A stretch of DNA of 64,000 bases from Planctomycetota bacterium. GTDB taxonomy: Bacteria > Planctomycetota > PUPC01 > JACPCR01. The stretch spans positions 1 through 64,000 of the forward strand of contig JACPCR010000094.1 in assembly GCA_016179685.1 (NCBI GenBank), given 5' to 3'. The notes beneath the pieces are model-generated. The model searched no databases and was not told the DNA's origin. It worked only from the letters and a program-made list of their open reading frames with translations. Position numbers and translations under genes: made by a program. Shown piece after piece: positions 4,104 to 63,866 of the stretch. How positions within the stretch are numbered: the stretch's first letter is position 1; the number at the start of each line of letters is the position of its first letter.

Positions 4104-4958
4104 ATGCGGATCAATCTGAACGGAAAAATGCTGTCATCGGACCAGGCCACGATCCCTGTGCTGGATCACGGATTTCTCTTTGGTGACAGCGTGTACGAGG
4201 TGATCCGAACGGCCAACGGGCGGCTCCTCACCGCGCGGGAGCACATCGAGCGCCTCCGGGAGTCCGCAGCGGCCATCCGGCTTCCGCTGCCCCTGACGGA
4301 CGAGCAGTTCCTCAGGGAGCTGGAGCGCACGCATGCCGAGGCGGGACACGCGGAATCCTACCTGCGCCTCGTGGTGACGCGGGGCGTCGGGGAGATCGAG
4401 CTGTTGCCGCGTTCCTGCCGCCAGCCGAACTGGCTCATCATCGCCAAGCCCCTGGCCGCCTGGCCGGAAAGCTGCTACACCGATGGCATCCCGGTCTGCC
4501 TCGCGCACATTCACCGGAATCCGGACAGCGCCCTGAGCCCGCGGATTAAGTCCGGGAACTACCTCAACAACGCCCTCGCGCTCATGGAAGCCGCGGACGT
4601 CGGGGCCGGCGAGGCCATCATGCTCAACCCGGACGGCTGGGTCACCGAGGCGACCACGAGCAACGTCTGGATCGTCCGGGACGGTGCGGCCCTGACGCCG
4701 TCGCTCGATTGCGGGCTGCTTCGGGGCATCACGCGGGGCATCCTTCTGGAGATCGCGCGGGCGCACGGCGTTCCCGCGCGCGAGACGCGAATCAGCGCTG
4801 GCGAGATGCTGGGGGCCGACGAGGTGTTCCTCTCCGGCACGACCCGAGGCGTCATGCCGGTCCGTCAGGTCGACCAGACCCGGATCGGCAGCGGGCGGCC
4901 GGGTCCCGTGACCCGGCGGCTACACGAGCTCCTCGAAGAGCGCCTCCGGGCGAACTAG
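4104..4958 (+). CDS. Class IV PLP aminotransferase (branched-chain/D-amino acid aminotransferase or ADC lyase-like)
   Basis: LDHGFLFGDSVYEVIRT, IKSGNYLNNALALMEA, TEATTSNVWIV, LLRGITRGILLE, LSGTTRGVMPV. TAG stop at 4956-4958. Confidence 0.88.
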   Translation: MRINLNGKMLSSDQATIPVLDHGFLFGDSVYEVIRTANGRLLTAREHIERLRESAAAIRLPLPLTDEQFLRELERTHAEAGHAESYLRLVVTRGVGEIELLPRSCRQPNWLIIAKPLAAWPESCYTDGIPVCLAHIHRNPDSALSPRIKSGNYLNNALALMEAADVGAGEAIMLNPDGWVTEATTSNVWIVRDGAALTPSLDCGLLRGITRGILLEIARAHGVPARETRISAGEMLGADEVFLSGTTRGVMPVRQVDQTRIGSGRPGPVTRRLHELLEERLRAN

Positions 4959-5003
4959 TATTCGAGATTGAAACCGCCGGTGCACTGGCGGTCTCGTCAC
5001 CTA
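4956..5003. repeat. TAG-hairpin element, 48-bp class; both ends are stop codons of convergent genes
   Basis: TAGTATTCGAGATTGAAACCGC-CGGT-GCACTGGCGGTCTCGTCACCTA; TAG = aminotransferase stop, CTA = SDR stop. Confidence 0.7.
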
Positions 5004-5774
5004 GCTGGAATCGGCCGATCGGGCCGGCAGCCAGAACCCGCCATCGACCCGGAGGCACGCGGCCGTGATGTACGAGGCGTCCTCCGAGCAGAGAAAGACC
5101 GCCGCCTTCCCCAGCTCCTCGATCGTCCCCAGGCGTCCCCAGGGGAGCTTCTTGCCCAGCTCATAGATTTGCGACTCCGGGACGAACCGCCGTTCTCCAG
5201 GCGTGTCGATCCATCCGGGCTCGATCACGTTCACGCGAATGCGGTGCGGGAGCAGTTCCTCCGCCATGGTATAGCCCATGTGGTTGATGCCGGCCTTGCA
5301 GGCATTGTAGGCGAGGGAGGTCCGGAACGGGATGAAGGCGTGCACGGAGCTGATGATCAGGATCGCTCCGCCCTGCCCGCGCCGGACCATGTCGCGAGCG
5401 CAGGCCTGACTCGTGTGGAAGACGCTCATCAGGCTGACGCCCAGAACCCACTGAAATTCCTCGCCGCTCAACTCGAGGAACGGCTTGCGGACCGTGCTGG
5501 CCGCGTTGTTCACGCAGATATCGATCTTGCCGAAGGCTCGGAGGGTCTCCTGCACCATGTGATCGACCGCCTCGCGTTTCGACACGTCCGCCTGGCAGAC
5601 GATGGCCCGTCGGCCGAGCCCGCGAATCTCCCGGGCCACGGCTTCCGCCTCCGCCTCGTGAGTGTTGTAATTGAGCGTCACGTCGGCCCCTTCCCGGGCC
5701 ATCTCGACGGCGATCCCTCGCCCGATCCCGCGGTTCGATCCGGTGACCAGCGCGACCTTTCCGGCCAGCTTCAT
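5001..5774 (-). CDS. SDR-family oxidoreductase
   Basis: MKLAGKVALVTGSNRGIGRGIA (TGxxxGIG), NNAAS, YNACKAG (YxxxK). Start 5774 preceded by AAAGGAGTG. Confidence 0.92.
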   Translation of the reverse strand: MKLAGKVALVTGSNRGIGRGIAVEMAREGADVTLNYNTHEAEAEAVAREIRGLGRRAIVCQADVSKREAVDHMVQETLRAFGKIDICVNNAASTVRKPFLELSGEEFQWVLGVSLMSVFHTSQACARDMVRRGQGGAILIISSVHAFIPFRTSLAYNACKAGINHMGYTMAEELLPHRIRVNVIEPGWIDTPGERRFVPESQIYELGKKLPWGRLGTIEELGKAAVFLCSEDASYITAACLRVDGGFWLPARSADSS

Positions 5775-5828
5775 AACCCGCACTCCTTTCTTGTCATTCC
5801 CTGGGCTTCCTGCCACAATGCATGAGTT

Positions 5829-5876
5829 TAGTATTCAAGCTCGCAAGTGCGGGTGCACTTGCGAGCTTGAATACTA
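5829..5876. repeat. TAG-hairpin element, 48-bp class, perfect palindrome
   Basis: TAGTATTCAAGCTCGCAAGTGC-GGGT-GCACTTGCGAGCTTGAATACTA, 22/22 bp paired. Confidence 0.95.
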
Positions 5877-13715: not shown

Positions 13716-13788
13716 GCGGGGAGAACAGGTCTCGCCGGGGCAAGTCTGGAAGGCGAGACAAGAAAACTCGATATTTGACAACTGGCCC

Positions 13789-13836
13789 ATTCACAAGTGG
13801 TAAAATAGGAATGTCTCTTGAATTTCGCCGAGGTTT
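13789..13836 (+). promoter_or_regulatory. Shared 48-bp leader/promoter-region repeat, gmk copy
   Basis: ATTCACAAGTGGTAAAATAGGAATGTCTCTTGAATTTCGCCGAGGTTT; 44/48 identical to 59735-59782. Confidence 0.8.
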
Positions 13837-13843
13837 CCCAAAG

Positions 13844-13885
13844 GAGACGAGTCAGCAAGTGCGGGTGCACATGCTGACTCGTCTC
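13844..13885 (+). repeat. TAG-hairpin element, 42-bp class, in gmk leader
   Basis: GAGACGAGTCAGCAAGTGC-GGGT-GCACATGCTGACTCGTCTC, 18/19 paired; one further G-C pair outside. Confidence 0.9.
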
Positions 13886-13920
13886 CTGGCGCTCGGCCGC
13901 CGTATCCGGATTCATGCCCG

Positions 13921-22465: not shown

Positions 22466-22545
22466 GGCCATTCTCCGGTAACTGAGACCTCCTGTTTCTC
22501 TCTGTCACAACGCAGCGCGCCAGCAAGCTTCGTAAATCATGCTCC
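22466..22545. repeat. 80-bp dispersed repeat, copy 1
   Basis: GGCCATTCTCCGGTAACTGAGACCTCCTGTTTCTCTCTGTCACAACG...GCAAGCTTCGTAAATCATGCTCC; about 66/80 to 35426-35505, no indels. Confidence 0.8.
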
Positions 22546-26568: not shown

Positions 26569-27334
26569 GAGCATCGGTTCACAAGTTCGTCGCAGGTTTC
26601 TAGTCCTTCGATTCATAAATCCGATGACGGGTTTCTTCCCTCAGGACTAGTGCTGAGTAAGCAAACGACGTGATCCAGTGATGGTCATTCGTCAGGGTCA
26701 TTGCGCATCGAAGCACCAGCGTTCACGACCCTCACCCCGGCCATCCCCCGCAGGGAGAAGGGGATGCTGATCTGTTGGTTAATCCATGAAGGATACAGAA
26801 AATTCCGGCTCTTCGCGATTGAGCGCGCGGAACGCAGCCATCGGTTCAATATCTTGATTCTTTATCTTCATTCTTGTCGGGGTCGGCATCGGGTGCCCGC
26901 CGAAGCCAAAGGCCCTGAGTTTGCCGAAGGGGGGCGCTATCCGGACGAAGAATTTCATATTCCACTTGTCCCTAAGCCGTTTGCCCTGAATGCCGCTTGC
27001 CTATTTGCCATTTATCATTCCTCATTTACCACTTCCCATTTCCGAATGGCAAATGGCAAATGACCGATGACCAATGGCTAATGAGAGGATGCTCGCGGAA
27101 CTCCTTCTCTGAAAGGGGGCTTTCGACCAGTCGAAGCACCTCCTCCAGGTGCGCGTCCAGATACTTCTCCTCCAGCCTCATGCACCGTTGAGGCCTCTCC
27201 GCGCAACAGCATCCCGGCGACAGGGTCCGCTAAGGTGATCTGGGAAAACAATTCCATTTGAGTCATGACCCTCTTATGGTACCAGAAGGCGATCCCCCTT
27301 GAACTCCGGCCCGCTGGTGTTTCAATACCAACCC

Positions 27335-30300
27335 ATGCCCGAATCGGACATCCTCATTCGCGGCGCGCGCGTCCACAACCTGCGCAACGTCAGCCTCTCC
27401 CTGCCCCGAAACCGGCTCATCGTCTTCACGGGCGTCAGCGGATCGGGCAAGTCCTCCCTCGCCTTCGATACGCTCTTCGCCGAGGGACAGAGACGCTACG
27501 TCCAGTCGCTGTCGTCGTACGCCCGCCAGTTCTTGGACCAGCTCGAAAAGCCGGATGTGGACTTCATCGGTGGTCTATCCCCCTCCATCTCCATCGAACA
27601 GAAGTCCGCCGCCCACAACCCCCGGTCCACCGTCGGCACGGTGACCGAGGTTCACGACTTCCTCCGGGTGCTCTTCGCCCGGATCGGCACGGCCCACTGC
27701 ATCCGGTGCGGCCAACCCATCGGGGCGCAGACGCGTGAAGAGATTCTGGCGCGGCTTCTCGCTCTCCCCGCCGGCAGTCGCATCCAGGTCCTCGCTCCGG
27801 TCGCCCGCGCCCAGAAGGGGGAATACCGTGATCTCTTCGCGGCGATGCGGAAGCAGGGCTTTGTCCGCGCGAGGGTGGACGGCCGGCCCGTCGAGCTTTC
27901 GGAGCATCTCCAGCTCGATCGGCAGATGCGGCACGACGTCGAGATCGTGGTGGACCGGCTGGTCATCCGGGATGGCCTGCGCCCGCGGCTCGCGGAGGCC
28001 GTGGACCAGGCCCTGGCGCTGGCCCAGGGCACGCTCATCGCATCCGTTGAAGGTCAAAGGGACCTTCTGTTGAGCGCCTCTTACGCCTGTGCGCCCTGCG
28101 GGCTGAGCTACCCGGAGCCCACGCCCCAGCTCTTCTCGTTCAACAGTCCTCAGGGGATGTGCCCGACCTGTTCCGGCCTGGGAACCCAGATCGACCTGTG
28201 TCCCGATCTCATGCTGGTCGAGCCGAAGAAGTCGATCCGGGACGGCGCCATCGATCGGGAGGTCTTTCAGAGAAGCCGCTGGTTGCTGCACCTCTACGAG
28301 GGCGCGGCTCAGGCTCTCGGCTTCCGCCTCGACCAGCCCTGGAATTCCCTCACGGACTCACAGCAGCGCGGCTTCCTCTACGGCACGGGAGACGCTCATA
28401 TCGATTTCATCTGGCGCGGCCGCGACCACGAATGGCGGCACGGCGGAAAGTTCGAGGGCCTCATCGCCATGCAGATGAGGCGCTACGGACAGTCCGGCGA
28501 GCGCAAACGCCGCGCCATGGAAGCCTTCATGCGGACCAGCCTCTGCCCCGAATGCCGCGGCGAGCGGCTGCGGCCTGATGCCCGCGCCGTCCGCGTCGGC
28601 GGCCTCAATCTCCCCGCGGTTTGCCGCCTCACCGTAGGCGAGGCCGAGACCTTCTTCCGGGGCCTCACCCTCGGGCCGGCTCAGCTTCGCATTGCCGAGG
28701 ACGCCCTCAAGGAGATTCGCGGTCGGCTGCGCTTCCTCATGAACGTCGGGCTGCACTACCTGACCCTGGACCGTTCGGCCCCGACACTCTCCGGCGGCGA
28801 GGCGCAGCGCATCCGCATGGCCAGCCAGGTCGGCTGTGGACTCGTCGGCGTCACCTACATTCTGGACGAGCCGAGCATCGGGCTGCATCCCCGGGACAAT
28901 GCCCAGCTCATCCAGACCCTGAGAGAGCTTCGAGACGCGGGCAACACGGTGATCGTCGTCGAGCACGACGAGGAGACCATCCGCGCCGCGGACCACGTCG
29001 TGGATTTCGGGCCGGGACCCGGCGTCCACGGCGGGCACGTCGTCGCCGCAGGCAAATTCCAGGAGATCGTCTCCACCCCGGGCTCGATCACGGCTGAATT
29101 CCTGGACGGGCAACGAGCCATTCCCATTCCGGCCTCGAGGCGCCAGGCCGGCCGGAACGGCTGGCTCACCCTCACCGGAGCGCGCCACAACAACCTCAAA
29201 AACATCACGGTCCGCATCCCCCTGCAGTCCTTCACGGCGGTCACGGGTGTCAGCGGATCGGGCAAGAGCTCGGTGGTGTGTGACATCCTCTGGGAGGCCT
29301 TGGCGCGGGACTTGAACGGCGCGAGGACTTTTCCCGGCGCCTACCGGTCCATCCGCGGCACGGAGAGGCTCCGCAAGGTCGTCGACATCGATCAGAGTCC
29401 GATCGGGCGTACGCCGCGCTCCAATCCAGCCACCTACGTCGGCGTGCTGGACCCCATCCGCGACCTGTTGGCGAGCCTTCCAGAAGCCAGGGTCCGAGGT
29501 TACCGCAGGGGCCGCTTCAGCTTCAACGTGCGCGGTGGCCGCTGCGAGGCCTGCGAGGGACACGGCTGCAACCGGCTCGAGATGGACTTCCTCGCCGACG
29601 TCTGGGTCACCTGCCCCGTGTGCAGCGGCCGGCGCTTCAACCGCGACACGCTGGCCGTGCGCTTCAAGGGCCGGAGCATCGCCGACCTCCTGGACCTCGA
29701 CGTCCAGGAAGCTCTCGAACATTTCGAAAACATCCCTCCGATCCGGTCCATGCTTCAGACCATGGCCGACGTGGGGTTGGGCTACCTCAAGCTGGGGCAG
29801 CCGTCGACAACCCTCTCCGGCGGCGAGGCCCAGCGCATCAAGCTGGCCGAACAGCTCGTTCGGCCCAGCTCCGGCGGCACGCTCTACATCCTGGATGAGC
29901 CGACCACGGGCTTGCATTTTGCCGACGTAGAAAAACTCCTCCAGGTGCTCCAACGCTTCGTGGACGCTGGCAACACGGTCGTCGTCGTCGAGCACAACCT
30001 CGAGGTGGTCAAGTGCGCGGATTACGTCATCGACCTCGGGCCCGAAGGCGGCGAAGGGGGTGGGCGCGTCGTGGCCACGGGCCCGCCCGAAGCCATCGCC
30101 CTCGTGCCCGCCTCCTACACGGGCCAGGCCCTGCGCCGGGTCCTCCATGCCTCAAGGCCAGCCCCCGCCCGAGGCGGGCCGACCGAGAGGCGGCCGACCG
30201 CCGGCCAGAGGAAGCGGGCCTCTCCGACGCCCGCAGGGCGTGGCCGCGCTCTGACCGAAATCCGCATCCTCGGCGCCAGCCAGCATAACTTGAAACATCT

Positions 30301-35425: not shown

Positions 35426-35505
35426 GGCCATTCTTCCGTAACTGAAACCTCCCGTTTCTTTCCATCACAACGAAACGAGTCCGCAAGCTTCGTACATCAC
35501 GCTCC
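35426..35505. repeat. 80-bp dispersed repeat, copy 2
   Basis: GGCCATTCTTCCGTAACTGAAACCTCCCGTTTCTTTCCATCACAACG...GCAAGCTTCGTACATCACGCTCC. Confidence 0.8.
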
Positions 35506-35852
35506 TCAGGAACAAAGTCTCATCTCCATAAGTTCGGGAAGGACGATCAGGTCATGTCCATGCGGTATGAATTCCGTAGCGGAACGCGTCAGCGTTCCGT
35601 CCGAGAGTTGAGATGTGAGGGTCCAGACGAAGCGCTGGCGCGCTTTGCTACGCCATTCGGGGCTGACACCCCGCGAGCGTAGGCGAAGCCTTCCCAAGTT
35701 TATCCCCCTGGGAGGGGCCTACGATTCCGGGCTTCGCCGAAGCGCTGACGCGCTTCGCAACGAAAACTTGTGAAGTGCTGAATCAAGATCGATAATAAAA
35801 TCAGGCGGGTCCGTCTCCCCGAACGGATTGAGAAGTTACGTTTTTCGAAAAA

Positions 35853-38093: not shown

Positions 38094-38141
38094 TAATAGA
38101 GGGGTGCGGAGGTGCATTCGCATTCCCGCACCCCTTTATTC
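38094..38141 (+). repeat. TAG-hairpin-like element, 48-bp class, just upstream of rpsU RBS
   Basis: TAATAGAGGGGTGCGGAGGTGC-ATTC-GCATTCCCGCACCCCTTTATTC; 17/22 Watson-Crick plus 3 G.U. Confidence 0.7.
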
Positions 38142-38368: not shown

Positions 38369-38472
38369 GCATCAAGGCTCGGAAAGGTGTCCGGTTTCAG
38401 GTTTCAGGATCGTTTCACACCTGGCCCGCTTGCGGCGGGACACCTATTCAAGTGTGGCCCCCAAGCGCCGAG

Positions 38473-38520
38473 TGGACGAGTTCGCAAGTGCACCCGCACT
38501 TTCGAACTCTTTTATTTTGC
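38473..38520 (+). repeat. TAG-hairpin element, 42-bp class (38473-38514), possibly doubling as rpsU terminator
   Basis: TGGACGAGTTCGCAAGTGC-ACCC-GCACTTTCGAACTCTTTTA followed by TTTTGC; T-rich 3' flank. Confidence 0.8.
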
Positions 38521-39476: not shown

Positions 39477-39524
39477 TAGCACACACGTTCGGAAGTGCGG
39501 GCGCATTTCCGAACGTGTGTGCTC
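39477..39524 (+). repeat. TAG-hairpin element, 48-bp class
   Basis: TAGCACACACGTTCGGAAGTGC-GGGC-GCATTTCCGAACGTGTGTGCTC; 20/22 plus 1 G.U. Confidence 0.92.
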
Positions 39525-39598
39525 GTTTCCCAGCACGGAAGTCCTCCCGCACATCGATGCCGGGATGTCCGATAGACACCCCGGCGAAATGAACCGCG

Positions 39599-41245
39599 AT
39601 GAACGCGAAGATGGACATCCCGCCGGTCCAGTGGGGCGATCCGGAGAAGGCCGCGGAGGTGCCCGAATCGTTCCAGCAGCTTCTGCAGGAGGCTCTGGGC
39701 CTCGAGCAGGCGCAACCTAGGACTCTGCCATCTCCGAAGGACGTGCACATCCCGCCAGCATCCCTGCCCGCAAAGGCTCATGCGGAACTGGTGGAACTTC
39801 TCGGGCCTGAGCATGTGAGGTCCGATCATGCCGTGCGCCTGCGGCACGCCCTGGGAAAGAGCTACCTGGACATCATCCGCTACGCCTCGGGTCGGCTGGA
39901 TTACGCCCCGGATGCGGTGGTTTTCCCCGCCGACAAGGCGCAGATATCGGACCTGTTGAGCTGGGCGACGCGGCACGGCGTCGCCGTGATCCCGTTCGGC
40001 GGCGCGACCAACGTCGTCGGCGGGCTCGAAGGCCACAGCCCCGCGATCGCCATGAGCCTTCGTCGGCTGGGCCGCGTCCTGGAGTTGGACGAAACGGACG
40101 GCCTCGTCACCGTCCAGCCAGGGCTTTTGGGGCCCGACCTCGAAGCCGCGCTCAATCCCCGCGGCTTCACCCTGGGGCACTTCCCGCAGTCCTTCGAGTT
40201 CTCATCCGTGGGAGGCTGGCTGGCCACACGGTCGGCAGGCCAGCAATCCACGCTTTACGGCAAGATCGAGGACCTGGTCGTCTCGATGAAAGTCGTCACG
40301 CCAGCGGGCGAGATCGCCACGTTGAGGACGCCGGCCGAGGCCGCGGGACCCGATCTCGACCAGGTTTTCTGCGGATCCGAAGGCACCCTGGGAATCATCG
40401 CCGAAGCGACACTCCGGCTGCACCGGCTGCCGGAAAGCCGCGTCTTCGCCTGTGGGCTCTTTCGCAGGTTCGATGAGGGGATCGAGACCGTCCGGGAGCT
40501 GCTCCAGGAGGGGCATCGGCCCGCCACGGTGCGGATGTTCGACCAGGAGGAGACGCGGGCGCTGGGGGCCATCGGCGGCCGGGGCCGCAGCGCAGCACGG
40601 CACACCCGCCGCTGGCTCGGCGAGCTGGCCTTGCGCGCCCAGGGACTCGAGCCGGGCCGCACCTGCCTCCTCATTCTCAGTTTCGAAGGCACGGCCGGGC
40701 ACACGGCTCAGGCCTCGCAGCACGCCGCACGGATCATCACCATTCACCGCGGCATGCCCATCGGGCCGAAGCCGGGCGAGATTTGGTACGACACACGCTT
40801 CGAGCTGCCGTACCTCCGGGACCGGTTGATCCAGCAGGGAATCCTGCTGGACACCCTCGAGACGGCCACCACGTGGGGACGGGTGCAGGACCTGCACCGC
40901 GATGTTTCGGGGGCGATCCTCGAGGCTCTGTCGGGCTCTGGCCGCCGCGGCCTCGTGCTGGGCCATCTCTCGCACGCCTACCCCGAGGGGGCATCGCTCT
41001 ACTTCACCTTCCTGGCCCGGGCCGAAGCCGGCCAGGAAGCGGGCCAGTGGCTCCGCGTTCAACAGGCCGCCCTGGAGGTCATCCTGCGGCACGGAGCCTG
41101 CATCAGCCATCACCACGGCATCGGACGCCGACACGCCGAAGCCTTCCAGCGCCAGGCCGGCCAAACCCATCTCAAAATACTCCGGGCGATCAAGTCGGCC
41201 CTCGACCCCTCGAATATCATGAACCCCGGCCAGATGGGGATTTAG
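39599..41245 (+). CDS. FAD-linked oxidase resembling alkyldihydroxyacetonephosphate synthase (AGPS)
   Basis: VIPFGGATNVVGGLEG, FEFSSVGGWLATRSAGQQSTLYGKIEDLV, CISHHHGIGRRH, IKSALDPSNIMNPGQMG. Confidence 0.85.
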   Translation: MNAKMDIPPVQWGDPEKAAEVPESFQQLLQEALGLEQAQPRTLPSPKDVHIPPASLPAKAHAELVELLGPEHVRSDHAVRLRHALGKSYLDIIRYASGRLDYAPDAVVFPADKAQISDLLSWATRHGVAVIPFGGATNVVGGLEGHSPAIAMSLRRLGRVLELDETDGLVTVQPGLLGPDLEAALNPRGFTLGHFPQSFEFSSVGGWLATRSAGQQSTLYGKIEDLVVSMKVVTPAGEIATLRTPAEAAGPDLDQVFCGSEGTLGIIAEATLRLHRLPESRVFACGLFRRFDEGIETVRELLQEGHRPATVRMFDQEETRALGAIGGRGRSAARHTRRWLGELALRAQGLEPGRTCLLILSFEGTAGHTAQASQHAARIITIHRGMPIGPKPGEIWYDTRFELPYLRDRLIQQGILLDTLETATTWGRVQDLHRDVSGAILEALSGSGRRGLVLGHLSHAYPEGASLYFTFLARAEAGQEAGQWLRVQQAALEVILRHGACISHHHGIGRRHAEAFQRQAGQTHLKILRAIKSALDPSNIMNPGQMGI

Positions 41246-41290
41246 TACACGCGCAGGGAAGTGCATTCGCCCTTCCCTGCGCGTGTACTA
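41243..41290 (+). repeat. TAG-hairpin element, 48-bp class; TAG is stop codon of AGPS-like gene
   Basis: TAGTACACGCGCAGGGAAGTGC-ATTC-GCCCTTCCCTGCGCGTGTACTA; 21/22 paired. Confidence 0.95.
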
Positions 41291-48808: not shown

Positions 48809-48860
48809 TTACAACTTGTACGGTCTTCCCCTCGCTGGGTCAGAACTTTCTGACGGTCCG

Positions 48861-51800
48861 ATGGCCCTCAATATCACCTGCAGTAATCCACAGTGCCGGA
48901 AAGTTCTCACCGTTCCGGACGACCTCGCGGGCCAGGATGCGGTTTGTTTGAGCTGCGGCGCCCACACGGCGGTACCCGGCACCCCAGAGGGGGCCTTCAC
49001 ACCCGGCGTGAAACTCGGCCACTATCGTATTGTCCGAAAGATCGACGAAGGCCGGATGGGCGCGGTCTATGAGGCCGTACAAGAGGGCTTGAATCGGCGC
49101 GTGGCGGTGAAGGTCTCTCCGAGCTGGCTCGCCGCGGATCCGGCCTACATGAAACGCTTCCGGCAGGAGGCGCAGACGGCGGCCGCGCTCGACCACCGTA
49201 ACATCGTGCGGATTTATGAAATCGGCGAGGAGCGTGGCCGAACCATCTTCACCACGGAATTCGTCGAGGGCGAGAGCCTCCGCCGCTGGATACAGCAGGA
49301 GAAGAAGGCGACGCCGGAAGAGGCCTGGGATGTTCTTCTCCAGGCCGCTCGCGGCCTCTCCCATGCCTGGGATCACCAGGTGGTCCACCGGGATATCAAG
49401 CCCGAACATCTCATGCTCACTCGCGATGGCGTCCTCAAGATCGCATACCTCAGCGTGCACAAGGTCACCGCCGGGGCGGCGAACGTGGTCGACAGCGAGG
49501 TCGCTTCCGCGATGCCGTACTACATGAGCCCCGAGCAGGTCAAGGATTCCCTCGATGTCGATATCCGGTCCGACATCTATTCGCTCGGCGCCACGGTTTA
49601 CCATATCGTCACTGGGCAGATTCCTTTTGAAGCCCCTACCGCCGTGGAACTGGCCATGAAGGTCGTGCGCGAGCCGCTCCGGCCCGTCCGGGATCTCCGT
49701 CCGGGTGTGCCCGGACCGCTTGCCGCCGTGATCGAGAAAATGATGGCCAAGGAGCCGGAGGACCGTTACCAGACTCCGACGGAGCTTCTGGCAGCGCTCG
49801 ACAAGGCGAACCCGGCGCAGGCCAAGGAGAAACTGGCCAAAGCCCAGGAACTGGTGAAGCTCATGACGACCCTGGAGATGGCCCAGCAGGTGGCGGCGGA
49901 GGCGGCAACGCCCGCCTCACCGCAGAAGCCCTCCCTTCCCGCCGCTCCTGCGAGTCGCCCACCGACCCGCGGGATGCCCGCCGTGCAGCCGCCTGCGGCC
50001 TCGGGCCAGGCCGCCGCTTCGAGGCCCCCCACCCGCGGGATGCCCGCCGTGCAGCCGCCTGCGGCCTCGGGCCAGGCCGCCGCTTCGAGGCCCCCCACCC
50101 GCGGGATGCCCGCCGTCCAGCCGCATCCGCCGGCGTCGGCGTCCCAGCCGGCCGAAAATTTCCGGCCGAATGCCGCAGTTTCACCGCCGGCCCGGCAGGG
50201 CCTCCTCTTCGCCGTGCTCGGGATCGCCGCTGTTGCTGTCATTGCCGTCGCCGCTTTCTGGGTCACCCGCTCCCTTTTCAAAAGGCAGGATGCCGCCCAG
50301 TCCCCAGGCGCCACAGAAACCACCGTCCGCCCGGTCGAGCCCGGGGACTCTCAGCGGGAAGCCATCGCTGGGATGTTCGATTACACGATGCAGTATGTGG
50401 AGGAGCACCCGGAAGACTACCGCGAGATTGTGAATCGATTCGAGACACTGAAGGAACGGGGCCGCAACACGGAATTCGAGTTCAAGGCCGAGGATCAGGC
50501 CAGAGTCTGGCGGGCCCGATGGGACGCGGCGGCCCAGAAAGAATTTGAAAGACGCCAGAAAGAGGCCGAGGCCCAACTCCAAGCGGAGCGTTTCGACGAG
50601 GTCTCCCGGCTATGGAAGGAGTTTCCCGACAGTTTCCGCACGGATGCCATTGCGGGCCGAATCAACCTGGAGACACGCAAGTTGAGCGATCGTGCGGCCA
50701 CCGCTGCGGGTCAACTCGGCGCATCCGCTCGCCCCATCCTGGCCAAGCAGCCGGGCAGCCTTTCCGAGGCCGAGGTGAACATCCTCATCGACGTGCGCAA
50801 TGGCGCTGCGTCCCTGTCGGGCAGGGACGGCGTTCCGCTCAACTCGCTCTCCGCCTGGCTGGGTGCCGAGCAGAAGACCTTCCTCCAGGGCCTGACAGAC
50901 AACCTGGAGGCCTTGCTCGAGGCCCATAAGAGTGTGAAAGCAGCCGAGCAGGCCAAGGCCTATAACAGCTTTTGGGGCCAGCTTTCCCAGCTCGTCAAAG
51001 GGAAGAAATTCAAGGAGGCCGAAGACCTCATCGCCGCCAGTCAGGCGATTCTCGAAGGGGAATCCCTGACCCGCCTCCAGCAGGACATTCAGACCCTCAA
51101 GTCTCTTTGGCCGCGTCTGGAGGCCAACCTCGGCACTCTCAAGAACAAGTCGGTCCTTGTCGGCGGAATCAGCATGAAAGTCACGGACATCCGCGAAGGC
51201 AAGTTCATCGTCCGCCAAAACGACGGGGAGGTTGCCCTGGGGCCAGAAATCCTGGACGCGGAACAGCAGGCCGATCTCGCCTGCGCCTCCGAGAAAGACC
51301 CCAAGGCGTCCACTTTCCAACGGGCTCTTTTCCTTTTCTTCTACGGAAACGCCGGCCAGGCCAGCAAGGCCTTGGAGGAAGCCCGGGCCTCTGGCCTCGA
51401 TCTCTCCCTCTACGAGTCCCGGGTCCTCCCCATCCTCGTCGTCACTTCCGTCCCGTCCGCCGCCACCGTCGATCTCTCTCCCAAGATGGACCCTTCCAAG
51501 CTGCCCGGGAAAGGCTCGAAGCCGCTCACCACCCCCGTCCGCATCGAGGTCCAGCGCAATACCACGTATACCGTCGAGGTCACGAAGGAAGGCTACTTCG
51601 CCTTTACGCGGAAGATCAAGGTCGGGCAACTCGGAGAACACCGCGTCGAGGCCACCCTTCAAAAATTCAAGCTGCCCGCCTCCATCCAGGAGGACTTCGA
51701 TATCCCCTCCAAGGGTGAAGACTCGCGGGGCAACCCGGTTCGCAGGGGCGAGGACCCCGACTTCGGATATCCCTTCGAGATTCGACACCGCGCTTCCGGC

Positions 51801-52622
51801 ATCCACCTCGTTTTTGTGCCTTCCGGAGGCTTCCCGATGGGCAGCCCCGAAGGCGAAAAGGGCCGGGACGCCGATGAGACCCAGCACACGGTCACCTTCT
51901 CCCAGCCCTTCTATATCGGCAAGTACGAGGTCACCGCCGGTGAATTCAAGCGCTTCGTCCAGCGGACCGGCTACCGTACGGATGCCGAACGCGGCGGAGG
52001 CGGCTGGGTCTGGGCCGGCTCCGAATGGGTCAGCAAGCCCGACGCCAATTGGAAAAACCCCTATTCGCAGGACCCGAGCGACGAACACCCCGTGGTGCTG
52101 ATGAGCTGGAACGATGCCCAGAAGTTCGTCAACGGGCTCAACGGCGGCCGTGGCGACCGCTTTCGCCTGCCGAGCGAGGCCCAGTGGGAGTTCGCCTGCC
52201 GGGCCGGAAGCGAGACCCGGTTCTCCTGGGGCGAGGACGAATCCGCTGCCGGTCAGTACGCCAATGTGGCCGACCGAACGGCCAAGCAGAAATTCCCGGA
52301 ATGGCCATGGGCCGTCTTTGACACCGACGACGGATTCATCACCACCGCCCCGGTCGGACGCTTCAAGCCGAATGCCTTGGGGCTTTACGATACCCTGGGC
52401 AATGCCTGGGAATGGTGTTCGGACTGGTATGAATCCAATTACGCCACCAACCAGAAATTGGACCCGCAGGGACCCGCCTCCGGCACGACGAGGGTCTGGC
52501 GCGGAGGCCACTGGGCGAGCCAACCTGCGGGCGACCGTGCCGCCAGCCGGGGCGACGCTGCTCCGGATTACCGCGATATGTATTCGGGATTCCGCGTCGC
52601 CTTCACCCTGGCTGGAAAATAA
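48861..52622 (+). CDS. Ser/Thr kinase-like protein (predicted pseudokinase) with N-terminal Zn-ribbon-like motif, TM segment and C-terminal FGE-sulfatase-like domain
   Basis: MALNITCSNPQCRKVLTVPDDLAGQDAVCLSCGAH; DEGRMGAVYEAVQEGLNRRVAVKV; VVHRDIKPEHLMLTRDGVLKIAYLSVHKV; C-term HLVFVPSGGFPMGSPEGEKGRDADETQHTVTF...FRLPSEAQWEFACRAGSETRFSWGE...LGNAWEWCSDWY. Confidence 0.93.
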   Translation: MALNITCSNPQCRKVLTVPDDLAGQDAVCLSCGAHTAVPGTPEGAFTPGVKLGHYRIVRKIDEGRMGAVYEAVQEGLNRRVAVKVSPSWLAADPAYMKRFRQEAQTAAALDHRNIVRIYEIGEERGRTIFTTEFVEGESLRRWIQQEKKATPEEAWDVLLQAARGLSHAWDHQVVHRDIKPEHLMLTRDGVLKIAYLSVHKVTAGAANVVDSEVASAMPYYMSPEQVKDSLDVDIRSDIYSLGATVYHIVTGQIPFEAPTAVELAMKVVREPLRPVRDLRPGVPGPLAAVIEKMMAKEPEDRYQTPTELLAALDKANPAQAKEKLAKAQELVKLMTTLEMAQQVAAEAATPASPQKPSLPAAPASRPPTRGMPAVQPPAASGQAAASRPPTRGMPAVQPPAASGQAAASRPPTRGMPAVQPHPPASASQPAENFRPNAAVSPPARQGLLFAVLGIAAVAVIAVAAFWVTRSLFKRQDAAQSPGATETTVRPVEPGDSQREAIAGMFDYTMQYVEEHPEDYREIVNRFETLKERGRNTEFEFKAEDQARVWRARWDAAAQKEFERRQKEAEAQLQAERFDEVSRLWKEFPDSFRTDAIAGRINLETRKLSDRAATAAGQLGASARPILAKQPGSLSEAEVNILIDVRNGAASLSGRDGVPLNSLSAWLGAEQKTFLQGLTDNLEALLEAHKSVKAAEQAKAYNSFWGQLSQLVKGKKFKEAEDLIAASQAILEGESLTRLQQDIQTLKSLWPRLEANLGTLKNKSVLVGGISMKVTDIREGKFIVRQNDGEVALGPEILDAEQQADLACASEKDPKASTFQRALFLFFYGNAGQASKALEEARASGLDLSLYESRVLPILVVTSVPSAATVDLSPKMDPSKLPGKGSKPLTTPVRIEVQRNTTYTVEVTKEGYFAFTRKIKVGQLGEHRVEATLQKFKLPASIQEDFDIPSKGEDSRGNPVRRGEDPDFGYPFEIRHRASGIHLVFVPSGGFPMGSPEGEKGRDADETQHTVTFSQPFYIGKYEVTAGEFKRFVQRTGYRTDAERGGGGWVWAGSEWVSKPDANWKNPYSQDPSDEHPVVLMSWNDAQKFVNGLNGGRGDRFRLPSEAQWEFACRAGSETRFSWGEDESAAGQYANVADRTAKQKFPEWPWAVFDTDDGFITTAPVGRFKPNALGLYDTLGNAWEWCSDWYESNYATNQKLDPQGPASGTTRVWRGGHWASQPAGDRAASRGDAAPDYRDMYSGFRVAFTLAGK
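49953..50132 (+). repeat. In-frame 66-bp tandem repeat (about 2.7 copies) in kinase-like CDS
   Basis: Encodes SRPPTRGMPAVQPPAASGQAAA repeated; nucleotide copies nearly identical. Confidence 0.9.
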
Positions 52623-53528: not shown

Positions 53529-53571
53529 TAGCCCGGATTTCTTATCCCGCCGGGATGAGAAATCCGGGCTA
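53529..53571. repeat. TAG...CTA hairpin of a different sequence family (43 bp); CTA is stop of isochorismatase-like gene
   Basis: TAGCCCGGATTTCTTATCCCG-CCG-GGATGAGAAATCCGGGCTA; near-perfect stem. Confidence 0.9.
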
Positions 53572-54366
53572 GACAGTTGCCCGCACCTTCTGGCAGGCCG
53601 AGAAAAAATCTTCGTTCGACGCCGAAAACCCATATTGCTGCTCGATCTCACGGATCGCTATCTCCGTGACCAGACACCCGTCCAGCGTGTCCGGAAACTC
53701 CACCCCGGTCGTGCAGTCTCGCAGCACGATGAAATGGTAGCCCCGCCTCGACATCGCCCGAATGCCGTAGTCCCGGCCCAGTAAACACCAATTCGCCGCA
53801 AAACCAGCATAGATGAGATGCAAGATGCGCCGCTGCGCCAACACATGGTGAAGCTCTGATCCCGTCGCTACCACCTTCTCATCCGGCCGCACGTCGATGA
53901 GCGGCGACATCCCGAGCTGGTCCTTCACCTTCTCGTAGTGAACCATGATGCCCGGCGGTTGACTCCTCGGCCCCACGTAGGCTCGATAGGCGCCCTCACG
54001 CCGACGGAAAGATGCCGGAGGCCAGTCCGGCTCCACCCCGGGTGGTGCGACCGCGGTCTTCACCCCATCGGGCCGGTGGTCAGGAAACTGCCGCGCCACA
54101 TCCGGGCAGGGCGCGTGGATCACCATCAGGCCCGCTCCGCGCGCCGCAGCCAGCGCAGGCACCAGCTTCTCTGTCATCACGTGGCTCGCACGCTCGATCC
54201 AGCTCTCAATAAAATGGCTGTTCCAGGTGTCCACCAGCACCAGCGCAGTAGCCTCGACGGGCAAGACCATCTCGATCTCGCGACGGATGAAATTCGACTC
54301 CCGGCACGGCACGCCCGCCGGCGTGCTGTCCTGAAAATATCGCACCCTCAAATTCAAATCAGCCAT
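53569..54366 (-). CDS. Isochorismatase-like cysteine hydrolase
   Basis: TALVLVDTWNSHF, VIHAPCPDV, ILHLIYAGFAANWCLLGRDYGIRAMSRRGYHFIVLRDCTTGVEFPDT. Confidence 0.87.
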   Translation of the reverse strand: MADLNLRVRYFQDSTPAGVPCRESNFIRREIEMVLPVEATALVLVDTWNSHFIESWIERASHVMTEKLVPALAAARGAGLMVIHAPCPDVARQFPDHRPDGVKTAVAPPGVEPDWPPASFRRREGAYRAYVGPRSQPPGIMVHYEKVKDQLGMSPLIDVRPDEKVVATGSELHHVLAQRRILHLIYAGFAANWCLLGRDYGIRAMSRRGYHFIVLRDCTTGVEFPDTLDGCLVTEIAIREIEQQYGFSASNEDFFSACQKVRATV

Positions 54367-55807: not shown

Positions 55808-55935
55808 CGAGACGAGGCTGAGTGACCAGCGGCGAAGCGCTGTCTCAAACCGTCCAGAGTGGCCCGGGCGACCAGAGCCGAAAGAGGATGCGGCACGCGC
55901 TTCGACGAGCGGTCTTGCTTCGCAAATACTTGGCT

Positions 55936-56052: not shown

Positions 56053-56631
56053 ATGCTAGATGCGAACCCCTCGGAAGCATTGCATGACAATTATCAAGGA
56101 TTTATGAGAGAGACATCTCTTTTCTCGGGCAAGCTGAAGGACAAGCTTGTCCTGCGGGTGGTCGGCAAAGGTAAGTCCAGTCATTCGGCGGCCTTAAGTC
56201 AGGCGGCAGATGAAGCGGTCGAGAACGGTGTCAGTTCCATCGTCATTGACTTGAAATCCTGCGACTGGCTGGATAGCACTTTCGTGGGCACTCTGGTTGG
56301 AATCGCCTTGAGGCTGCGAAATGCGCACAGGGGCCATCTCGCCCTGGCCAACGTGGATGAGGCGACCCGGCGGCAGCTCGAGGAATTCGGCCTGACGCGA
56401 CTCCTAGCGCTCGAGGAAGTGGGCGAAGACTACCATTGGGCTGTCAGCCGGCTTCCGGATGTCTTGCAGGAGCCGAGCCAGCTTGCCCGGGCTATCCTGG
56501 AAGCACACCAACACCTGATGAAAGTGAATCCGGAAAATGCGAGGCGATTCGCCGCTCTCCAAAGACGCCTGTTGGTGGAGTTACAGGCCGCCCTTCCTGA
56601 CCGACCCCCATCCGAACTTGCCTCTACGTGA
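56053..56631 (+). CDS. STAS-domain (anti-sigma factor antagonist-like) protein
   Basis: VSSIVIDLKSCDWLDSTFVGTLVGIALRLRNAHRGHLALANVDEATRRQLEEFGLTRLLAL. Confidence 0.85.
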   Translation: MLDANPSEALHDNYQGFMRETSLFSGKLKDKLVLRVVGKGKSSHSAALSQAADEAVENGVSSIVIDLKSCDWLDSTFVGTLVGIALRLRNAHRGHLALANVDEATRRQLEEFGLTRLLALEEVGEDYHWAVSRLPDVLQEPSQLARAILEAHQHLMKVNPENARRFAALQRRLLVELQAALPDRPPSELAST

Positions 56632-56909
56632 TTGCCACGTCCCAGCGAGCCGTAGCCGTTGTTCGCAACCAGAAGGGACTTCATGCGCGGCCCTCCACGC
56701 TGATCGTGGAAGCAGCGCTGAAGTTTCAGGCGGACGTTTATCTTTTGCGGGGCGACCTGCGAGCGAACGCGAAAAAATTGCTGGATGTCCTATCGCTCGG
56801 GGCTGAACAGGGAGCGATCGTTACGCTTGAGGCGGCTGGCCCCGATGCGGAAGAAGCGATTCTGACCGTCAAGGGACTGGTAGAAACGGAGTTCTCGTTC
56901 GACTCTTAG
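56628..56909 (+). CDS. ptsH: HPr-family phosphocarrier protein
   Basis: NQKGLHARPSTLIVEAALKFQADVYL (His site), ANAKKLLDVLSLGAEQG; GTGA overlap with the STAS gene. Confidence 0.9.
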   Translation: MIATSQRAVAVVRNQKGLHARPSTLIVEAALKFQADVYLLRGDLRANAKKLLDVLSLGAEQGAIVTLEAAGPDAEEAILTVKGLVETEFSFDS

Positions 56910-56954
56910 AATCCCTGTTCATGAGTGCACCCGCATTTCTGGACAGGGATTCTA
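56907..56954 (+). repeat. TAG-hairpin element, 48-bp class; TAG is stop codon of ptsH
   Basis: TAGAATCCCTGTTCATGAGTGC-ACCC-GCATTTCTGGACAGGGATTCTA; 18/22 plus 3 G.U. Confidence 0.9.
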
Positions 56955-56961
56955 AAAGAAA

Positions 56962-57010
56962 CCCCTCCCGCAGCAATTCCTACCGCGGGGACAGGTCCGG
57001 GAGGGGTTTC
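56962..57010. repeat. 13-bp inverted repeat with GGGACAGGTCC-containing loop
   Basis: GAAACCCCTCCCG ... CGGGAGGGGTTTC. Confidence 0.85.
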
Positions 57011-57015
57011 CAAAG

Positions 57016-57057
57016 TAGACGAGTTTGCAAGTGCGGGTGCGCTGGCGAGTTCGTCTA
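57016..57057 (+). repeat. TAG-hairpin element, 42-bp class; CTA is stop codon of cupin gene
   Basis: TAGACGAGTTTGCAAGTGC-GGGT-GCGCTGGCGAGTTCGTCTA; 14/19 plus 4 G.U. Confidence 0.9.
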
Positions 57058-57657
57058 CTTAGGAGTAGCAGGCTTGGAGACCGTTCCGTTGATGGGCGGG
57101 GAATTCTTGGCCGCAGCCTCTGCTGCCGTGACCGTGACAAAGTCACGGCCGTCGCTGGGCGGAGAGACGATGCTGACCACCACGGCAGGCGTGCCATCAG
57201 CGCTCCTGAAGGAATGAAAGGTCCCTTTGGGGATATGCATGAGCGCCCCGGCGGCGATGGGATATTCCATGTCGCCGACTCGGAGGACGCCGCGTCCGGA
57301 CTTCACATAGACGGTCTCATCATGGTAGGAGTGGTAATGGGCGGGAACGTCCCGCGCCTCGACCACGTGGATGCTGAGGGCCGCATTTCCCCCCACATTC
57401 TGAATCTGGAAATTCCGGTCCGCGGGCAGCGGGGATTCCTTGAGGATTTCGTCGATCTCTTTCAGAAGGAACTTGGAGCTCCCGGTCGGATTCTGCAGCA
57501 TTCTCACCTCTCGGGGACTGGCGCATCCGATCCCGAACAGCACAAGAGAGACGCCGACGAGGGCGCAGACCAGGCACGTCTTGACGAATGGCGTCGACCG
57601 AAGACCATCGAGGGCAGGCGACGTCCGCCGCCCTTCGACACGGTAGGATTCCATCAT
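57055..57657 (-). CDS. Cupin-domain lipoprotein
   Basis: Lipobox VLFGIGCAS; cupin VPAHYHSYHDETVYVKSGRGVLRVGDMEYPIAAGALMHIPKGTFHSFRS. Start MMESYRV at 57657. Confidence 0.82.
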   Translation of the reverse strand: MMESYRVEGRRTSPALDGLRSTPFVKTCLVCALVGVSLVLFGIGCASPREVRMLQNPTGSSKFLLKEIDEILKESPLPADRNFQIQNVGGNAALSIHVVEARDVPAHYHSYHDETVYVKSGRGVLRVGDMEYPIAAGALMHIPKGTFHSFRSADGTPAVVVSIVSPPSDGRDFVTVTAAEAAAKNSPPINGTVSKPATPK

Positions 57658-57787
57658 ACGAGGCCCTCGAAAGGGATTGGACGAGCGGGCTTCTATCTCG
57701 CACGCCGCGCCGGGATGCGCTCGTGGATTCCCGGCGCGGCGTACCAGAGCATGGACGACCACGATGGCTCCTGATGCCTGCTCAAAG

Positions 57788-59403: not shown

Positions 59404-59734
59404 GATATGTAACTTCTCACTAAGTTCGGGAAGGACGATCAGGTCAAATCGATGAGTTATGAACGGAGTAGCGAAGCGTTGAATCCATGCCCCGTTGGGA
59501 GCGGGTTACTACGAGCGTATTTTGAGGTGCACGACAAGGCTACATTTAGGCGTCAGTCGTTGGAGTGACGGTTTTAACCGTTGTCCGATCAGCGCCACGC
59601 GTATAAGGCGTAACTCCAACGAGGTGGCCGTCCTGCGGATCGAGAATCAAGTCTCCGCAAGAATTTAGCGCGGTAGGAGTAGGCAAATCACCCGAACTGA
59701 TTGAGAAGTGACATCGATATCCCATAAGTAACCG

Positions 59735-59782
59735 ATTCACAGGTGGTTAAATTGGAATGTCTCTTGAATTTCGCCGGGGTTT
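59735..59782 (+). promoter_or_regulatory. Shared 48-bp leader/promoter-region repeat, leuS copy
   Basis: ATTCACAGGTGGTTAAATTGGAATGTCTCTTGAATTTCGCCGGGGTTT. Confidence 0.8.
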
Positions 59783-59863: not shown

Positions 59864-62671
59864 ATGGCCGGTCGAGGATACGACGCGTCAACCCTTGAGC
59901 CCAAGTGGCAGAAGTACTGGATCGAGCGACGGACATTCCGTGCCCCGGACCCGTGCGATGCGGATTTTGATCCGGCCCGGCCGAAGTATTACATCCTGGA
60001 TATGTTTCCGTACCCGAGCGGCGAGGGTCTGCACGTGGGCCACCCCGAGGGCTACACGGCGACGGACATTCTCGCCCGTTACAAGCGGATGCGAGGCTAC
60101 AACGTACTGCATCCGATGGGATGGGACGCCTTCGGGCTGCCGGCGGAGCAGTACGCCATCCAGACGGGGACGCATCCGGCACAGACGACGCGGAGGAACA
60201 TCCAGACGTTCCGCCGGCAAATCCAGTCGCTGGGCTTCTCCTACGACTGGGACCGGGAGGTCAGCACGACCGATCCGGAGTACTATCGCTGGACGCAGTG
60301 GATTTTCCGGCTGATCCACGACACCTGGTACGATGAAGCGTCGGGCCTGGGCCGGCCCATCTCGGACCTGCCCATCCCGCCGGGGGCGGCGGCCGACCCG
60401 GTCAGGCGGCGGCTCTACGTGGATTCGAAGCGGTTGGCCTACCTGGACGAGGTCCCGGTCTGGTGGTGTCCCGCGCTGGGAACGGTCCTCGCCAACGAGG
60501 AGGTCATCGACGGACTTTCAGAACGCGGGCAGCACCCCTGCACCCGTCTTCCTCTCAAACAGTGGATGCTGCGCATCACGGTCTATGCGGAACGGCTGCT
60601 GCGGGAGCTGGAGGGCGTCGACTGGCCCGAGGAGACGAAGAAACAGCAGCGGGAGTGGATCGGGCGCAGCGAGGGGGCCGAGGTGTGGTTCGGCCTGGAG
60701 ACGCCCGCGGGAGGGACGGAGGCGCTCGCTCGCCTGGCGGACGGCCGGCTGGTGCGCCGGGCAGCCCGCAGCAGTTTGGCGACACCGAGCTTCGAGTTCC
60801 GAATCTTCACGACGCGGCCCGACACGCTCTTCGGTGCGACCTACATGGTGCTGGCCCCCGAGCATCCCCTGGTGGCGGTGTTGACGACGCCGGAGCAGCA
60901 CGACGCCGTCGAGGCCTATCGACTCCGGGCGGCGCAGAAGAGCGACCTGGACCGCACGGGCTTGGCCCAGGACAAGAGCGGCGTATTCACCGGCGCCCGG
61001 GCGGTCAATCCGGTGAACGGGTCGAGGATTCCCATCTGGATCGCGGACTACGTGCTGCTCACCTACGGCACGGGCGCCATCATGGCCGTGCCCGCCCATG
61101 ACGAGCGCGATTTCGATTTCGCCCTGCAATACGGCCTGCCCATCGTGGAGGTCGTCCGGCCCGTTCAGCCCATCACCGGCAGCGTCGAAGAAAAGGCCAA
61201 AGCGGGGCTGCTCCGCGAGACCTCTCTCGATGGGAAGCCTCTCTCCTGCTACGTCGGCGACGGGACCGCGGTGCATTCGCCCTGGATCGACGGCCTGCCA
61301 ACGCCGGAGGCGAAAACCCGGATCACCCGAAAACTCGAGGAACGCGGCGTCGGGGAACACCGGGTGCAGTACCGACTCCGCGACTGGATATTCTCCCGGC
61401 AGCGCTATTGGGGAGAACCGTTCCCCATGCTCCATCTCGAAGGCGGCGGAACGGCGTCCGTGCCGGAGTCGGCACTGCCCGTGCTCCTGCCCGAGCTGGA
61501 GGATTTCAAGCCGTCGGGCCGGGCAGAGCCTCCTCTGGCCAAGGCCTCGGCGTGGGTGAAGACGTTGGACCCGACGACGGGCCGGCCCGCTCGCCGCGAG
61601 ACCAACACCATGCCGAATTGGGCCGGCTCGTGCTGGTACTACCTCCGATTCATCGACCCGAAGAACAACCAGGTGGGTTGGGACCCGGCGAAGGAGCGGT
61701 ACTGGATGCCGGTGGACCTTTACGTGGGCGGCCGCGAGCATGCGGTGTTGCACCTCCTCTATGCCCGCTTCTGGCACAAGGTGCTGTACGACCGCGGTAT
61801 CGTCTCGACACCGGAGCCCTTCCAGAGGCTGTTTCACCAGGGGCTGATCCTGGCCTTCGCCTACGAGGACGCGGCGACCTCCGCCCTGGTCCCGACGGAC
61901 CAGGTCGAGGAGCGCGCCCCGGGCGAGTTCGCCCGCAAAGATACGGGCAAGCCGGTGCGCCAGATTGTGGCCAAGATGTCCAAGTCCCTCAAGAACGTGA
62001 TCAATCCGGACGAAGTCATCCGCGAGCACGGGGCCGACACGCTGAGGCTTTATGAGATGTTCATGGGGCCGCTCGAGGTGTCCAAGCCCTGGAATCCAAG
62101 GGACGTCGAGGGCATCTCCCGTTTCCTGCACAAGTGTCACCGGCTGGTGCTGGGCGACGCCGGCGAGTCGCTGCGGCCCAACCTGCGGCCGGGCGCTGCG
62201 GAGGCCCCGCCGGAGCTGGAGCGCGCGCTTCACCGCTGCATCAAGAAGGTGACGGACGATCTCGAGGCGATGGCCTTCAACACGGCCATCTCGGCGATGA
62301 TGATCTTCGCCAATGAAGCCGCGGCCCGTGCCGACGCGCTGGAAAAGTCCCAGGCGGAACGCTTCGTCTTGCTGCTTTCGCCTTTCGCTCCTCACCTCGC
62401 TGAGGAGTTGTGGGAGGCGCTGGGACACGATCACACCCTGGCTTACGAGCCGTGGCCGCGGTACGACCCCGCGCTCCTGGTGGAAAGCACGCTGGAAATC
62501 CCCGTCCAGGTGAACGGCAAGGTCCGTGGCCGCATCCGGGTGGCCTCGGACGCTGGCGAAGAAGCCCTCAAGCAAGCGGCCCAGGAGTCCGTCTCCTCTT
62601 ACCTGGCGGGGAAAACAGTCCGAAAGGTCATCATCGTGCCTAAAAGACTGGTCAACCTGGTGGTCAGTTAG
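59864..62671 (+). CDS. leuS: Leucyl-tRNA synthetase
   Basis: [88 protein letters not shown] 59864 after AGGGAGG. Confidence 0.97.
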
Positions 62672-62716
62672 AATCCCGGTTGGGAAGTTCTATCGCACTC
62701 CCGAACCGGGATTCAA
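62669..62716 (+). repeat. TAG-hairpin element, 48-bp class; TAG is stop codon of leuS
   Basis: TAGAATCCCGGTTGGGAAGTTC-TATC-GCACTCCCGAACCGGGATTCAA; 18/22 paired. Confidence 0.85.
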
Positions 62717-63782: not shown

Positions 63783-63830
63783 CTGGTTTTCTCCGTGCTT
63801 TCCGTGCTCTCCGTGTTTCAAACCGATTTT

Positions 63831-63866
63831 GTTTATCTCTGTCACAACGAAGCGATTCCGCAAGCT
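63831..63866. repeat. 80-bp dispersed repeat, partial copy 3
   Basis: GTTTATCTCTGTCACAACGAAGCGATTCCGCAAGCT. Confidence 0.65.

Follow-up and report, generated by a model that had tools for sequence, protein, structure and literature searches.

The 48-bp hairpin element at positions 4956-5003 of the window (the whole stretch of 64,000 nucleotides analysed here) fills the gap between two convergent genes, and its ends are also their ends. TAG at 4956-4958 is the stop codon of an aminotransferase gene, and CTA at 5001-5003 is the stop of a short-chain dehydrogenase (SDR) gene on the other strand; inspection of the sequence and its open reading frames bore out both coincidences. The initial annotation proposed either that such elements insert at or near stop codons or that their ends were selected as translational stops. 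Does either proposal account for this locus?

The hairpin family and its copies in the window

Using a palindrome scan and alignment, we assigned the element to a palindromic family, F1, with the core AAGTGC-N4-GCACTT, arms of 15-17 bp and a total length of 46-50 bp. F1 copies most often end in (C/T)TAG, TCG or GAG, then T, base-paired and at both ends. The copy at 4956-5003 is a degenerate member with hybrid arms: its core, AACCGC-CGGT-GCACTG, has three mismatches to the F1 core, and its arms resemble two different F1 subfamilies. Its predicted hairpin has a stability of -17.0 kcal/mol; the inner part folds, with about 10 bases at the left end and 5 at the right end unpaired. The genes and repeats considered here are as follows.

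4104..4958, forward strand: class-IV aminotransferase (PF01063); its stop, TAG 4956-4958, lies inside the element, and the orthologue in the same-family genome G001, of a sister genus, ends at the same residue and stops with TGA
5001..5816, reverse strand: SDR (adh_short_C2); its stop, TAG (CTA 5001-5003), lies at the other end of the element
5829..5876: perfect F1 copy of 48 bp between divergent genes, away from stops; hairpin of -38.3 kcal/mol
13842..13887: F1 copy, no stop coincidence
38095..38140: diverged F1 copy about 25 nt past a stop
38471..38516: F1 copy with one arm decayed, no stop coincidence
39478..39523: F1 copy upstream of the gene starting at 39599, no stop coincidence
39524..39571: diverged F1 copy directly following the preceding one, no stop coincidence
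41243..41290: F1 copy; its first three bases (41243-41245) are the TAG stop of the FAD-linked oxidase/AGPS-like gene 39599..41245 (forward strand)
53529..53571: palindrome of a different family, F3 (TAGCCCGGATTTCTTATCCCGCCGGGATGAGAAATCCGGGCTA); the isochorismatase-like ORF 53569..54366 (reverse strand) has its TAG stop at the right end of the palindrome (53569-53571)
55832..55905, forward strand: 74-bp copy of a further family, F2, no stop coincidence
56906..56955: F1 copy; the HPr/ptsH gene, 56628..56909 (forward strand), stops within it at TAG 56907-56909
56958..57010: internal hairpin (GAAACCCCTCCC...GGGAGGGGTTTC) between two F1 copies, a component of a composite repeat
57012..57059: F1 copy; the cupin ORF 57055..57762 (reverse strand) stops at a TAG (CTA 57055-57057) that lies one codon in from the end of the copy
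62669..62716: F1 copy; its first three bases (62669-62671) are the TAG stop of leuS

The TAG stops that had been placed at element ends for the AGPS-like, leuS, ptsH and isochorismatase-like genes were all found there. For ptsH and the cupin gene the stops stood but the exact boundary did not: at ptsH one base of the palindrome precedes the TAG, and the cupin TAG lies one codon inside the element. The initial annotation counted six such genes; the actual number is seven gene ends. Its 'six of six' was, moreover, circular in that it counted the coincident copies alone: about 11 F1 copies are present in the window, and 5 of these have an end on a stop.

The gap between ptsH and the cupin gene is a mosaic of three hairpins. 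Elsewhere, a second repeat starting GGAAACCCCTCCC adjoins many F1 copies, again giving mosaics. Further dispersed repeat blocks occur in the window at 13757-13836 and 59703-59782, and at 35453-35586, 22493-22529, 63830-63866 and 59415-59478; some directly adjoin F1 copies, suggesting longer mosaic repeats. Two other repetitive features of the window are a 66-bp unit present three times in tandem at 49959-50156, within the long ORF 48816..52622, and a very long ORF at 27299-34075 (2258 aa) with internally repeated ABC-type segments, which may resemble a doubled UvrA.

The genome assembly comprises 7.23 Mb and is 90% complete. The F1 core (at most one mismatch) had 517 matches in it compared with 27 for the reversed control, and we estimate about 500 F1 copies. 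In G001 the same core had 23 matches against 38 for the control, which is background. Among 102 sampled copies, 93 were outside called genes. The arms exhibit base-pair covariation: 75-95% of pairs are Watson-Crick (85-95% at most positions), many positions occur with four pair types, and the observed pairing at variable positions is well above the 30-60% obtained from shuffles. Rfam 15 gave no match at gathering score in the window or in stretches bearing F2, tRNAs aside. Neither F1 nor F2 had a match in plasmid records, nor did F2 in phage records.

Stop codons and repeats across the genome

The statistics below come from 1.24 Mb of the genome, supplemented by a separate 0.4-Mb set. Gene calls were our own, made with a hexamer model trained on the sample; the same model was applied to the 0.4-Mb set.

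An end lay on a stop codon in 26 of 102 F1 copies, exactly in 19 and one codon inside in 7. Among the 96 F1 ends that face the 3' end of a gene, the 19 exact coincidences comprised 16 TAG, 2 TAA and 1 TGA. When each copy was moved within its own intergenic gap, 4.6 exact coincidences were expected and the maximum in 2000 placements was 11; since the element itself partly determines the gap, this null errs on the conservative side. The stop-coincident copies thus exceed random intergenic placement several-fold, which indicates that stop codons are preferred at insertion or in retention. Genes that run into an F1 element do so in the TAG frame in 28 of 31 cases (p = 6e-11).

A second comparison uses the null that the initial annotation proposed, the frequency of TAG. 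Gene stops make up 10.7% of noncoding YTAG sites, and CTAG and TTAG are rare in the genome. Against this share, F1 ends carrying TAG were clearly in excess (16/50, 32%; p = 4e-5), whereas the excess over all F1 copies was modest (19/102, 18.6%; p = 0.011). A pyrimidine preceded TAG in 35 of 43 element stops compared with 83 of 187 other TAG stops (p = 1.5e-5). If TAG is kept solely where it serves as a stop, this would account for its presence in nearly all cases. The 0.4-Mb set, with its small numbers, agrees: stops were present at 5 of 11 nearby F1 ends and at 2 of 5 F2 heads.

At least two families besides F1 share the coincidence. F2 (TTAGCGAAGCG...) is a 74-bp unit, TTAGCGAAGCGCTGCCTCAAACCG...GATACGGCAAGCGCTTCGCTAA, flanked by TTA...TAA. 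Of its 36 heads, 21 coincided exactly with a TAG stop (58%; p = 5e-12 against the YTAG share); the near-identical tail never did (0/26). In F3, heads coincided with TAG stops in 7 of 41 cases, and a scan for any hairpin starting near a stop returned further families at offset zero. Repeat coverage in this genome starts abruptly at the stop codon. In the sampled 1.24 Mb, a repeat occurred within 40 nt after 44% of TAG, 23% of TAA and 15% of TGA stops; the corresponding values for G001 were 7%, 7% and 5%.

The contrast between head and tail of F2 might be taken as a sign of single-stranded DNA transposition. This reading is weakened by the similar sequence that continues past the tail in several copies, and the F2 3' end may not be a true terminus, which could explain the absence of stop-linked tails. 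Pyrrolysine insertion or read-through at TAG, the amber codon, was also considered. F2 copies do not conserve the reading frame that follows TAG, and the proteins already end at their native residue, so we dropped this idea.

The F2 head pattern TAGCGAAGCnnYGCCTCAAACCG (at most three mismatches) had 102 matches in this genome. Elsewhere, it had 9 matches in G001 (TAGCGAAGCTTCGCCTCAAACCG-type); in two genomes labelled Deltaproteobacteria and Myxococcales the counts were 24 and 10, respectively, and the reversed control had none. At two of the loci in these other genomes the head is not on the stop but follows it by 1-12 nt. The head, with TCGAG often following it, recurs at loci L270, L272, L273, L275 and L276 and in G001, the labels including Myxococcales, Deltaproteobacteria and Anaerolineae. 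These are metagenome-assembled genomes, and mis-binning is a possible source of heads under other phylum labels. A literature search for the F2 sequence returned nothing.

Gene ends in a sister genus

Have the stops moved? We searched C-terminal pieces of about 60 proteins in G001, which represents the sister genus, and obtained reciprocal best hits from 0.8 Mb of that genome. The difference at the C-terminus was 0 aa for Mrp, PriA, the aminotransferase, UDP-glucose dehydrogenase, CysS, LepB and others. In LeuS, PilT and DprA the last residue was swapped one-for-one, and LeuS ended at the same place or within a few residues in 29 relatives. The FAD-linked oxidase has a sister stop TAG and a C-terminus identical in position; the sister SDR also stops at TAG and is one residue longer. 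The tail of RecA differs from that of the sister RecA. As orthologues mostly end at the same residue, the stops of element-bounded genes are in native positions.

The identity of the sister stop codon differed between families. For F1 genes (n = 12) it was TGA in 8 and TAG in 4; for F2 genes (n = 15) TGA in 3, TAA in 4 and TAG in 8; and for repeat-free TAG controls TGA in 2, TAA in 5 and TAG in 8. Comparing TGA with TAG/TAA, F1 differed from the controls (p = 0.007) and from F2 (p = 0.022). One entry of the F1 set, RseP, itself stops at TGA; swapping it for the SDR, with its sister TAG, again gives 8:4. These tests were not planned in advance, their samples are small and come from a single sister genus, and stop codons are subject to drift; we therefore treat the contrast in ancestral stops as a lead. 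It suggests that F2 landed on TAG or TAA stops and that the TAG at F1 sites often came with the element. The initial annotation had named a TAG that predates the element as a finding that would refute it, and on this point the outcome appears to divide by family: for F2 the TAG probably does predate it, given sister stops that are mostly TAG/TAA, and for F1, with mostly TGA in the sister, the element probably supplied it.

Together these data support the first proposal, that elements insert at stop codons or close to them: the coincidence extends across the genome, lies above both the uniform and the TAG-frequency null, at least three unrelated families are involved, repeats in the sister genome are rare at stops and have no TAG bias, and the sites are native stops. 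Selection of the ends as translational stops received no direct support, as most F1 copies lie off stops and TCG or GAG is a frequent terminal triplet. The observation at 4956-5003 is real and extends beyond the window; its original description holds in part.

Explanations and related systems

The reading we favour, with a probability of roughly 0.6 for the whole of it, is that REP-like non-autonomous repeats were inserted or retained at stop codons with the protein unchanged. The data show directly the families and their copy number, the exact coincidence, the unchanged C-termini and the base-pair covariation. On this reading F1 belongs to a group of such families, short and with hairpins, that have spread through intergenic DNA; their heads carry TAG, usually with C or T before it. 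Copies on a stop would be tolerated since the head keeps or supplies an in-frame TAG and leaves the protein unaltered. The families probably move by means of an HUH/IS200-type enzyme supplied in trans, F2-type heads presumably inserting at pre-existing YTAG/TAA stops and F1 often replacing a TGA stop by the TAG it carries. The outermost pairs of such a hairpin would include the stop codon, and by analogy with work on E. coli REPs this should affect termination or ribosome recycling on those mRNAs.

Eight Y1-type (Y1_Tnp) proteins are encoded in the genome, and none of their loci contains an F1 copy. One of them is a RAYT above the NCBIfam cut-off (NF047646; locus L069), which is flanked by a GGTCAGGCTTCCAGCCTGACC-type hairpin and not by F1 or F2. 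No transposase tied to F1 or F2, including a RAYT flanked by either, was found in the 90%-complete assembly. Joining the flanks and searching paralogues within the genome gave no empty sites; as no site was seen both with and without an element, transposition itself is something we infer. The RAYT gene (about 1288-1827 of L069; contig C6 near 50.4 kb) lies between two inverted hairpins within a gene of DUF1156 anti-phage type; its left part is joined in frame, the host gene continuing in a different frame, which looks like an intragenic insertion. At L067:1183-1956 (contig C84 near 204 kb), a LexA DNA-binding domain is joined to an IS200-type (Y1) transposase domain; the HUH motif of this protein looks degenerate, and an F2 head lies about 290 bp upstream.

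Could the coincidence arise with no preference for stops at all? Repeats might insert at random into TAG-like or TA-rich sites, those within genes being lost, and stops would then be the commonest harmless TAG near genes. The share of noncoding YTAG that are stops, the rarity of CTAG and TTAG and the moderate excess per F1 copy (19/102) agree with such a neutral filter. We nevertheless regard it as unlikely in view of the F2 heads (58%), the F1 TAG ends (32%) and the in-frame run-ins (28/31); moreover, two thirds of the F1 sister stops are TGA, where no TAG target exists. That the coincidence is definitional, the gene caller extending ORFs to the first TAG in an element, is very improbable. 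The coordinates are indeed ORF ends, and a gene entering an element can stop only at the element's stops, but out-of-frame run-ins are rare (3/31), and the C-termini of sister orthologues, and of LeuS in 29 relatives, fall on the same residue or a few residues away, which refutes it for the genes tested.

The hairpins might instead be kept as functional 3'-end elements, for transcription termination, protection of mRNA 3' ends or tuning of translation termination. Their great stability (-26 to -39 kcal/mol for the window copies except that at 4956), the strong covariation and the position directly at stops speak for this, and ribosomes are reported to stall at E. coli REPs that lie within 15 nt of a stop (PMC12306157). 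Yet F1 occupies convergent, divergent and tandem gaps (15/15/56) in proportion to their numbers (p = 0.65), and a tract of four or more T follows the hairpin at 6 of 204 ends, which is background. With no excess of U-tracts and no depletion between divergent genes, F1 is not a class of intrinsic terminators. Most copies are off stops, and the perfect arms may stem from quasi-palindrome repair, so we hold a functional origin to be distinctly unlikely. Finally, TA-duplicating MITEs of the IS630/Tc1 or Correia/ERIC-like kind with G as first base would always leave TAG on inserting into the TA of TAA or TAG. All three families have the form TA-G...C-TA; F2 has TTA...TAA on its flanks, and its sister stops are mostly TAG/TAA. 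TA is common at both borders; the ends are, however, inverted pairs and appear not to be direct TA repeats. As many F1 ends are TCG or GAG, the F1 sister stops are mostly TGA, the F2 tail is never at a stop and no DDE_3/IS630/Tc1 transposase was found in the genome (90% complete), such an origin seems quite improbable.

If insertion or retention of REP-like repeats at stops is confirmed, the stop codon serves several independent repeat families of one genome as a safe harbour, which would show how parasitic repeats can alter stop-codon usage and the 3' ends of genes with proteins untouched. The hundreds of natural strong hairpins beginning at a terminating codon would also make the ribosome stalling reported for REPs near stops testable outside E. 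coli. A bolder proposal, which we find doubtful, is that (C/T)TAG-headed hairpins constitute a class, with the F2-type head across phylum labels, mobilised by an enzyme that recognises the stop-codon sequence: stop codons would then be its preferred target, and every insertion would spare the protein and put a hairpin on the terminating ribosome.

Among known systems, IS630-, Correia- and ERIC-type MITEs are short inverted-repeat elements with TA at their borders. The families described here differ from them in that no cognate transposase was found, the borders do not appear to be direct TA duplications and the F1 arms vary with pairing kept. Mycobacterial MIRUs are interspersed repeats reported at stop codons, where they are described at TGA overlaps (stop/start) in operons; set against that general description, the present repeats are hairpins, involve TAG and occur in all gene arrangements. 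The likeness to E. coli REP/BIME and RAYT systems lies in the mosaic intergenic hairpin repeats, of which about 11% of REPs are within 15 nt of a stop and reported to stall ribosomes there (PMC2817692, PMC12306157). Here, by contrast, the stop itself is inside the repeat end, the sequence is unrelated and F1 is not enriched in convergent gaps.

The closest parallel is provided by GTAG-tagged REPs (Di Nocera et al. 2013), whose termini often give a TAG stop to flanking ORFs (PMC3733652). Both they and the families described here are short intergenic palindromes in hundreds of copies, with several families per genome (PMC3733652), paired or mosaic arrangements and a TAG in the terminal tag that serves flanking ORFs as a stop. 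GTAG REPs are 20-40 bp with an unpaired GTAG at one end, whereas the F1 unit, of 46-50 bp, is near-perfectly symmetric and carries a paired (C/T)TAG at each end. TCG or GAG stands at many F1 ends, and no RAYT gene could be tied to F1. Because of these differences in tag, size, symmetry and RAYT linkage, we regard the present families as a variant. The stop-codon habit is thus known in kind from REPs, and the repeats of this genome are a striking new example of it rather than a new kind of thing.
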